Of a stretch of 58,449 nucleotides of DNA, positions 1,754-3,286 are shown one piece after another. Numbering within the stretch: the first letter of the stretch is position 1; each line of letters starts with the position of its first letter. The notes beneath the pieces were generated by a model, which was not told where the DNA came from, made no database searches, and was given only the letters and a program-made list of their open reading frames with translations. Source of the DNA: Bacteroidota bacterium (GTDB lineage Bacteria; Bacteroidota; Bacteroidia; Flavobacteriales; Flavobacteriaceae); NCBI GenBank assembly GCA_027619415.1, contig JAQCFO010000008.1, positions 1-58,449 on the forward strand. The letters are read 5' to 3'. The position numbers were made by a program, and so were the translations under genes.

Positions 1754-2797
1754 TTACTTAATTTCTTTGGCTAGGAACATGTATATAGGAAAATGATCAC
1801 TGTATCCATCTAAAAATTTTCCACCAGCAAAGCTTCTGAAAGGATATCCTTCATATTTTCCATCAGAATTAATCAAATATTTCTTATTAAAAACTGCTGC
1901 TTTTAAAAAGAATATAGAATTTTCATTATTAATTAAACTTTTGGTAATCATAAATTGATCAATCATATCCCACTTTCCTCTATACCTATAGGATCCATAT
2001 CCTTTTTTATAGAGCTCTTCCATTGGGTTATATAATTGAAATTTTTTAATTTTAGATTTTTTAAAAACAGTATTTAAAATAGGTTTAACGCTTTTATCTT
2101 GAGGGTTGTCGTTGAAATCACCCATATTTATTATTTTGGCAAGAGGGTTTATAGAGACAATAGAATCAATAATTTTTTTATTTAATTTCCCCGCTAATAT
2201 TCTGCCAGGTTCACTTCTCATTTGGCCTCCTGATCTTGAAGGCCAGTGGTTTACAATAAAATAAATTAATTCATTATCTAAATATCCTGAAACTAATAAG
2301 TGATCTCTTGTAAAATCGAGATCTCCATTTTTACTTTTTAAATATAAATGGTAAGCTTTTGAAGAAATTGGTTTAAATCTATTTCTATTAAACAAAAGTG
2401 CAACATCAATTCCTCTTTCATCTGGCGAATCGTAATGAGCAATTCCGTAACTTTCTTTGATTAGCTCTTCAGAATTGATAAGATCAATAAGTACGCTTTT
2501 ATTTTCAATTTCACATAGCCCTATAATTGATGGCCCTGTGTTAGTAATGTCCCTTCCAATTTCAGAAATTACTTTTGCAATATTTTTAGATTTTTTTTTA
2601 TAAACTATACTGGTCCATTTGTCTTTTCCTTTTGGAGTTCTGTCGTCATCAAAAGTCTTGGGGTCATTTATTGTATCAAATAAATTTTCCACATTATAAA
2701 AAGCAATTGTATTAATTGAATATTTTTTTGAAGAATCTAATTGTGCAAAAGAAATTAGGGGAATAATAAATAACAATAGAACTGTTGATTTTTTCAT
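1754..2797 (-). CDS. secreted endonuclease/exonuclease/phosphatase-family protein
   Basis: A 347-residue exported member of the endonuclease/exonuclease/phosphatase (EEP) superfamily. An N-terminal signal peptide (about 1-18, ending SFAQ) is followed by the domain start FYNVENLFD, then IIGLCEIENKSVL (metal-binding Glu), HYDSPDERGIDVALLF, VNHWPSRSGG, NMGDFNDNP (Asp/Asn pair) and the closing GYSDHFPIYMFL (catalytic Asp-His). The set of EEP motifs is complete, so it should be a metal-dependent phosphodiesterase or nuclease acting in the periplasm or outside. Related flavobacterial proteins are annotated as endonucleases, but the substrate (DNA, RNA or phospholipid) is unknown. It is a single gene, divergent from the Cys-rich peptide gene at 2902. 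Confidence 0.85.
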   Translation of the reverse strand: MKKSTVLLLFIIPLISFAQLDSSKKYSINTIAFYNVENLFDTINDPKTFDDDRTPKGKDKWTSIVYKKKSKNIAKVISEIGRDITNTGPSIIGLCEIENKSVLIDLINSEELIKESYGIAHYDSPDERGIDVALLFNRNRFKPISSKAYHLYLKSKNGDLDFTRDHLLVSGYLDNELIYFIVNHWPSRSGGQMRSEPGRILAGKLNKKIIDSIVSINPLAKIINMGDFNDNPQDKSVKPILNTVFKKSKIKKFQLYNPMEELYKKGYGSYRYRGKWDMIDQFMITKSLINNENSIFFLKAAVFNKKYLINSDGKYEGYPFRSFAGGKFLDGYSDHFPIYMFLAKEIK

Positions 2798-2901
2798 CAG
2801 ACATTTTAATTTTTTATAAAAATAGAATTATTTCTAATACTTTATAGCCTTTCAAAATCCATCAATTTAATTCACTAACTTGATATTTAATATTTTAAAT
2901 T

Positions 2902-3003
2902 ATGAGTAAATTAAATTGTTCATGTAGTTGCGAAAACTGTAAAGCAGGCAATTGCTCAAGTTGTACTTGTGAAAAATGCACTTGTGAAAATTGCTCTTGC
3001 TAA
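2902..3003 (+). CDS. metallothionein-like Cys-rich micropeptide (33 aa)
   Basis: An ATG-to-TAA frame encoding 33 residues, of which 11 are cysteine (positions 6, 8, 10, 13, 18, 21, 23, 26, 28, 31, 33). They are arranged almost entirely as CxC and CxxC, as in CSCSCENC and CTCEKCTCENCSC. There is no signal peptide, no hydrophobic segment and no aromatic residue. These are the hallmarks of metallothioneins, which bind soft metals such as Zn, Cd and Cu(I) through thiolates. It does not look like the classical bacterial BmtA/SmtA fold (about 55 residues with His ligands). The DNA has an internal 15-base near-perfect tandem duplication (2965-2979 and 2980-2994) encoding TCEKC and TCENC. The next gene encodes a small His-containing membrane protein. 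The coding call rests on the extreme composition; the function is inference. Confidence 0.68.
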   Translation: MSKLNCSCSCENCKAGNCSSCTCEKCTCENCSC

Positions 3004-3058
3004 TTCATAGTTGGAAATTCATTTATTGTAATTAATTTTACAAATTAATTATATATTG

Positions 3059-3286
3059 ATGAAAAGAAATTTAATTACAATAGTTAGACTTGGACTACGA
3101 GCGCACTCTTTTTTCCATTTATTAGAATTTATTGCAGCACTATATGAAGGAGCTTATATTACAGCTTCTATTGCATGTGTTGCGATGGTTTTAGAGTTAG
3201 CAGCTAGCTACTTAATCCCAAAAGAACATATTCATATTAAGCCTTTGATTTCTGAGGTTCATGAATCTTGTTCTAATGATGAATGA
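3059..3286 (+). CDS. small membrane protein with His motifs, partner of the Cys-rich peptide
   Basis: A 75-residue protein starting at the ATG at 3059; a TTG one codon upstream is also open but unnecessary. Two hydrophobic helices (about 18-33 and 36-52) are separated by a short YEGAY turn. Histidines cluster at the membrane edge (RAHSFFHLLEF) and in the tail (KEHIHIKPL, then EVHESC), giving potential metal ligands. I recall similar small proteins with an HxxFH-like first helix and an EGAYITASIA turn in other Bacteroidota, but none with an assigned role. It lies 55 bases downstream of the metallothionein-like gene on the same strand, with a terminator 84 bases past its stop, so the two probably form one transcription unit. 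A role in metal transport or sensing is inference. Confidence 0.6.
   Translation: MKRNLITIVRLGLRAHSFFHLLEFIAALYEGAYITASIACVAMVLELAASYLIPKEHIHIKPLISEVHESCSNDE

Follow-up and report, generated by a model that had tools for sequence, protein, structure and literature searches.

We find that the 33-residue, Cys-rich peptide encoded near one end of a 58,449-nt contig of a Flavobacteriaceae genome (JAQCFO010000008.1 of GCA_027619415.1; "the window" below is this whole stretch) is probably a cytosolic metallothionein that in relatives belongs to a self-driving unit with an ECF sigma factor, and that the lineage of the window appears to keep it as a sigma-less survivor. We put the probability of this joint reading, in which the window peptide belongs to class A of a group of tiny Bacteroidota metallothioneins found mostly in Flavobacteriaceae, at roughly 70%. 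In the mechanism that we propose, the 11 Cys of the peptide would enclose a small cluster of thiolate-bound soft metal, namely Cu(I), Zn(II) or Cd(II). The usual order of the unit would be ECF-type promoter, peptide, strong hairpin and SigZ-like sigma factor. The sigma factor would recognize the promoter of the unit and drive its own expression along with that of the peptide. An excess of a thiol-binding metal, or thiol stress, would be read by the C-terminal CC...CxxC tail of the factor, which also has an invariant His and Cys in its linker; the peptide, by binding the metal, would shut the loop off; and the hairpin would keep the level of the sigma factor below that of the peptide. In the small-genome lineage of the window, the sigma factor and the promoter appear to be absent, and the peptide would survive in at least some species, beside a genus-specific small protein.

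The window peptide and its distribution

The window has a GC content of 29%. Its ORF translates as MSKLNCSCSCENCKAGNCSSCTCEKCTCENCSC, in which the 11 Cys follow the pattern CxCxCx2Cx4Cx2CxCx2CxCx2CxC and there is no His and no aromatic residue (Table 1). The initial annotation of the window had stressed this absence of His and aromatics; it holds for the window peptide but is not a rule of the family, since 10 of 80 distinct genes encode His and 10 of 80 encode F, W or Y. A near-perfect 15-base duplication had also been noted, and the two 15-mers (2965–2979 and 2980–2994) are indeed identical at 14 of 15 positions. The growth by repeat expansion that was read from it is unsupported, and we reject such an origin: the TCExC pair is found family-wide, 71 of the 80 distinct genes encode 32–34 aa, and the paired 15-mers match at 5–14 of 15 positions across the 80, so that the window is the extreme of this spread with no gain of copies.

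Table 1. Features of the peptide locus in the window (positions are those of the window).
Feature	Position	Strand	Basis or remark
Upstream region without the ECF-type promoter of sigma-paired relatives	2701–2901	+	Best fit differs at 6 of the 15 specified bases
Class A tiny metallothionein-like peptide gene	2902–3003	+	Translation, homologues, substitution pattern in own genus
Paired TCExC repeats	2965–2994	+	14/15 bases alike; motif common to the peptide family
Weak inverted repeat, perhaps left over from the hairpin between the genes of the ancestral unit	3027–3053	+	Fold z −2.2 over the 75 nt that follow the stop codon
Small hydrophobic protein of 75 aa with HSxxHxxEF and HIHI, in place of the sigma gene of relatives	3059–3286	+	10/60 relatives, all of the same genus
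Small protein of 64 aa	3425–3619	−	Conserved in 7 own-genus loci; no Pfam or NCBIfam match

Using a profile built from eight copies (E ≤ 0.01), we found the class A peptide, with a near-fixed 11-Cys pattern, in 68 of 397 genomes of the window's family and in 47 of 237 genera; this and the other genome counts are drawn from related genomes and are uncorrected for kinship. The 68 include weaker members, namely copies with Cys losses (G131, G375), a deletion (G010) or a stop (G369), and one weak match (G261). In a sample of the phylum, 5 of 395 genomes carried the peptide, all from the window's family, among the matches listed. A Cys-spacing search of named genomes returned at least 117 stretches, of which 80 were made into loci, mostly artefacts of Cys runs. 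Among the matches listed, at least 25 named-genome loci have a clean class A peptide, mostly in Flavobacteriaceae (Polaribacter, Winogradskyella, Tenacibaculum, Olleya, Gelidibacter, Lutibacter, Bizionia and others), and two are MAGs from outside that family, on which its breadth past Flavobacteriaceae rests. The Saprospiraceae MAG (L180) has the peptide with a sigma factor, and the Cytophagales MAG (L163) has no sigma factor within its 516 nt of downstream DNA. A mobile origin was rejected: tblastn returned no homologue of the window peptide in phages and none of one class A relative in plasmids.

Pairing with a SigZ-like sigma factor

Outside the window's genus, the class A peptide is usually the first gene of what appears to be a two-gene unit. 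A SigZ-like ECF sigma factor lies 6–252 nt downstream on the same strand in 50 of the 68 peptide genomes, and the largest cluster of neighbouring ORFs in 51 loci is an ECF sigma factor directly downstream of the peptide. Of the 42 loci that lie outside the window's genus, 38 have it; the cluster also took in two different sigma factors at other places (L095, L099). In named genomes, the sigma factor follows 17 of 20 clean peptides with enough downstream DNA, among the matches listed, and is missing behind L119, L168 and L181. A profile of ten such sigma factors found 116 places at E ≤ 1e-30 in 106 of the 397 genomes. At 174 bits or above, 50 of 51 places have a class A peptide upstream; the 51st (L241, in G231) has a sigma gene with two stops and a frameshifted peptide in front, and its promoter still fits the pattern described below. 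No third gene is conserved behind the sigma factor, since in 21 of 38 loci the next ORF of more than 80 aa is read from the other strand and in the remaining 17 it varies, and no metal-transport gene recurs beside the sigma-paired unit in the 51 loci.

In one class A sigma factor, sigma70 regions 2 and 4 score above the Pfam cut-offs (PF04542, 45.8 bits; PF08281, 50.0 bits), as they do in one sigma factor of class B, the second peptide class described below. For the one class A sigma factor scanned with NCBIfam, the best family matches are the SigZ equivalogs NF007215 (178.1 bits against a curated cut-off of 212) and TIGR02959 (163.1 against 168.65), both below their cut-offs. The sigma factors paired with class A peptides carry a tail of the form CC...GxLxGE...CxxC. 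In alignments of ten and of fourteen class A sigma factors, the terminal CC...CxxC is invariant, as are one His and one Cys in the sigma2–sigma4 linker, where CorE-like factors (former ECF44) have CxC. An AlphaFold model of the sigma factor has good core helices and a tail at pLDDT 54–72 with two short strands between CC and CxxC, which is weakly compatible with a metal-binding hairpin. Modelled on CorE of Myxococcus, the tail may act as a sensor of a thiol-binding metal or of thiol stress.

The peptide could instead chiefly regulate its sigma factor, as a soluble Cys/zinc switch that is anti-sigma-like or trades metal with the tail, and not serve as a metal store. Such a role would fit the tight pairing of peptide and sigma tail across two peptide classes and the lack of any other recurrent gene in the unit. 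We consider it unlikely, however, because 18 of the 68 peptide genomes have no adjacent sigma factor and the sigma-less copies of the window's genus keep a low dN/dS; a regulatory effect and metal binding are, moreover, compatible with each other.

A shared and nearly unique promoter

The same ECF-type promoter, GCATCTTTT-N12-CGTCTA or a near variant of it, precedes class A and class B units, mostly 51–60 nt before the ATG of the peptide. The spacer between the boxes is 16 nt in every match, with 16 to 18 permitted. The consensus is TGCATCTTTTT...CGTCTAtTataTgAAc for class A and GTATCtTTTT...GTCTaCtTa.tgAAc for class B. We found the promoter in front of 75 of the 81 peptides not classed as sigma-less (57 of 60 in class A and 18 of 21 in class B), a set that includes five named loci with too little downstream DNA (L112, L128, L135, L163 and L185). 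It was found in front of none of 20 others, made up of 14 sigma-less genes and six genes of the window's genus, window included; three sigma-less genes that misfit the pattern (L230, L236, L238) are uncounted. Of the six misses, L070 and L081 have a GAATC variant, the second box is altered in L251, L263 and L265, and L163 has no such promoter.

The pattern was composed after sight of the sequences, and its near-uniqueness in each genome is the independent check. In 40 genomes with the sigma factor, the exact pattern matched 32 times in 29 genomes; 29 of the 32 matches are the promoter of the unit, and the reversed control gave two. With one mismatch, 14 of 21 matches in 14 genomes are the unit promoter, and the other seven compare with ten for the control. 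A wider regulon of the sigma factor was rejected, the off-unit matches (3 of 32 exact, 7 of 21 with one mismatch) being read as background. Two of the exact off-unit matches (L295, L305) lie in similar stretches; on the strand of the match, an ORF of 36 aa begins 121 nt from the match start in one, and an ORF of 98 aa begins 63 nt from it in the other. Because the search used the commonest class A form, exact or near-exact, and gave no site in 11 of the 40 genomes, weaker or variant targets could escape it. From the near-uniqueness of the promoter, the sigma factor appears to have one main target, its own unit, and from the co-occurrence of the two we infer that it reads this promoter.

A hairpin between peptide and sigma factor

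In units that have the promoter, the 75 nt after the peptide are predicted to fold into a strong hairpin (z < −2) in 53 of 58 cases for class A and in 18 of 21 for class B. It is found in 5 of 21 units without the promoter, all five from the window's genus, where z is also below −2 in four of the five copies other than the window. Behind the stem there is a U-run (at least five T within eight bases) in 14 of 58 class A units, 12 of 21 class B units and 5 of 21 units without the promoter. The hairpin might act as a leaky terminator or be a site of processing, and in both cases it would hold the peptide above the sigma factor.

The fold test was first aimed at an attenuator. A short Cys-rich ORF followed by a strong hairpin and then a sigma gene, with a U-run behind part of the stems, could mean that the ORF is mainly a leader, whose Cys codons sense the supply of cysteine via the ribosome and set read-through into the sigma gene. 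That we judge improbable: the Cys codons are held in strict CxC/CxxC spacing and are not consecutive, the Gly between Cys residues is retained in 76 of 78 class A genes, and the ORF outlives the sigma factor in sigma-less genomes. We read the hairpin mainly as a limiter of read-through into the sigma gene.

A second peptide class

We examined all 65 of the lower-scoring sigma places. A tail of the form CC...GxLxG...CxxC and a peptide occur together in 21 of them and neither occurs in 40; one has the tail only (L244) and three have a peptide only (L247, L289, L358). In 22 of the 65, the sigma factor is preceded at 4–52 nt by a class B peptide, which is about 37 aa long and contains 14 Cys (consensus MNTCKCTNCECTKCNCxNCxxxNCPCxKCECxKCxCC). 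The class B profile finds this peptide in 24 of 397 genomes and 18 of 237 genera, and the sigma factor is adjacent in 22 of the 24, with none seen in the stretch examined in G266 and G402. The sigma partner, the shared promoter, the intergenic hairpin and this second class had all been missed in the initial annotation.

A third Cys-rich kind was seen in one genus, at L289 (G076:C23) and L358 (G301:C20). It has about 58 aa, many CC pairs and 14–15 Cys, and lies 102 nt upstream of a SigZ-like sigma factor with a different Cys tail.

Database matches and coding evidence

The window peptide has no meaningful match in Pfam or NCBIfam. Together with 30 relatives it gave two stray matches, one per library, to unrelated families (best E 0.49 and 0.044). 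PF02069 (Metallothio_Pro) matched neither the window peptide at E 1 or 10 nor the 30 relatives, although HMMER may miss such short proteins, and no canonical metallothionein (PF02069) was found in the window's own genome. The peptide profile matched no PDB chain. By its sequence the peptide looks like a metallothionein in the functional sense of the term, being small, about one-third Cys and conserved in its CxC and CxxC spacing; such a protein would bind several d10 metal ions through its thiolates. The earlier proposal of a tiny new bacterial metallothionein is largely right, in that this is a conserved Cys-rich peptide without a meaningful SmtA/BmtA, Pfam or NCBIfam match, in which metal binding is predicted.

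Since it is small and Cys-rich, the peptide might also be secreted or modified, as a bacteriocin, another RiPP precursor or a defensin-like peptide, and the sole PDB match in a single-sequence search is a defensin. With an E of 3.6, this match is no better than noise; the Cys core begins as early as residue 6 and leaves no room for a leader, and no modification or export gene recurs in the 51 loci. We regard a product of this kind as very improbable.

The metallothionein reading presupposes a real gene, and the ORF is one, as initially annotated. Among the 122 ATG ORFs of 25–60 aa in the window, ranked by Cys fraction, the next four have 3–4 Cys each, and 60 first-order Markov replicates of the window contained no ATG ORF of 25–60 aa with more than six Cys; the Cys load of the 33-residue ORF is therefore not due to chance. 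Homologous frames are present and open in relatives of the same genus. Among six copies with all 11 Cys, NG86 dN/dS is 0.05–0.32 in the 7 of 15 pairs with computable dS, and more than half of the differences fall at third codon positions in 12 of the 15 pairs. Across 78 class A genes, TGT and TGC interchange freely at the Cys codons, whereas the invariance of Cys itself is partly circular in this set because it was chosen by its Cys pattern. With homologous frames in relatives and this exchange at the Cys codons, the ORF withstood the refutation checks set in the initial annotation. The ORF is short, and at a loose limit of E 10 only 13 of 60 relatives gave a match, in part spuriously as partial matches inside long frames, but conservation, substitution pattern and chance simulation together refute a chance ORF.

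Comparison with known metallothioneins and metal-sensing sigma factors

SmtA and BmtA (PF02069) are, like the window peptide, small bacterial Cys-rich proteins with CxC. The window peptide differs in its length (33 aa against a 51-position model), in giving no match to that model and in having no His, and its family is partnered by a sigma factor, whereas the known regulator of SmtA is an SmtB-type repressor. The alpha domain of mammalian metallothionein has 11 Cys in about 30 residues and holds four divalent metals; Cys count and length are similar, but the Cys spacing differs and there is no homology in Pfam or PDB.

MymT of mycobacteria resembles the class A peptide as a small Cys-rich peptide with its own regulator, as far as can be compared by description and family libraries. 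MymT is placed under RicR, a CsoR-type repressor with a five-operon regulon, in a passage of PMC10141476, whereas the partner here is an ECF sigma factor with apparently one target. Two sigma factors of Myxococcus xanthus, CorE and CorE2 (ECF238, former ECF44), respond to copper and to cadmium and zinc, respectively, according to passages of PMC8999054 and PMC10141476; CorE is there an ECF sigma factor with a Cys-rich C-terminal domain and a linker CxC, which makes it a precedent for metal sensing. Like the factors described in those passages, the partner sigma factor has Cys in the linker and in a C-terminal extension, with no anti-sigma factor seen. It differs in its linker, which in class A has one Cys and a His and not CxC, in its CC...CxxC tail, and in its putative target, a metallothionein unit as opposed to oxidase and ATPase genes. 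As of 2020, according to a passage of PMC7387436, SmtA and MymT were the two bacterial metallothioneins whose function had been tested.

In the titles and abstract openings of the papers listed by our searches, a partial coverage with the 2021 ECF classification outside it, there was no metallothionein of the Flavobacteriaceae group and no pair of SigZ and metallothionein. A copper-resistance genome study of Bizionia argentinensis has the term "metallothionein" in its reference list only, by a term search of the main text (PMC11213822); another Bizionia species carries the class A peptide (L185).

If true, our reading adds a widespread metallothionein family to Flavobacteriaceae, where none is described in the literature searched, proposes a function for a group of SigZ-like sigma factors, and offers an apparently single-target sigma circuit that is testable in culturable marine bacteria. 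It also indicates that a very small gene can be judged via its promoter and partner. More tentatively, at somewhat less than even odds, the unit may be a self-contained one-operon circuit in which a Cys-tail sigma factor has its own promoter as sole target and is switched off as the metallothionein withdraws metal, into which at least two peptide classes have been fitted, and of which streamlined marine lineages, among them that of the window, keep the metallothionein and discard the switch.

The window locus and other sigma-less copies

The window copy appears to be orphaned of its sigma factor. In the window's own genome (1.66 Mb), SigZ models gave four matches, the best at 82 bits; as the assembly is 86% complete, a sigma factor elsewhere is possible. 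The sigma profile had no match at E 1e-30 in G000, G010, G014 and G016. The 18 peptide genomes without an adjacent sigma factor are smaller than the others (Mann–Whitney p 7e-8, unadjusted for kinship or completeness), as expected if streamlining removes the sigma factor first, and the lineage of the window appears to have lost it.

Within the window's genus, G010 has a shortened copy of the peptide and G015 a broken one, and it was not found in G006 and G021, though the 75-aa gene is present there. Part of the genus can therefore do without it, some species having kept the gene and others having lost it. The 75-aa protein has no Pfam match at E 1, and its gene outlives the peptide in some species of the genus. 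In one own-genus genome there is also a further, diverged copy of the peptide, MENSVELKCKCDCAPCKAGMCYRCTCKPCDCENCDCD, which is encoded on a different contig among unrelated genes (L014/L027, G020:C49).

In g155 (L238, L240), another genus with small genomes, three genes follow one another on the same strand: a cation exporter, an MBL-fold gene and, about 40 nt further on, the peptide. The neighbouring proteins at L238 gave matches to Cation_efflux with ZT_dimer and to Lactamase_B_2. The sigma-less copies at L093 and L168 likewise have a similar MBL-type gene in front of the peptide. The zinc-type exporter of g155 is the only local hint at zinc or cadmium. Several sigma-less copies (L231–L235) contain His or aromatic residues, which are uncommon in the family and could reflect drift or a changed metal preference after loss of the sigma factor.
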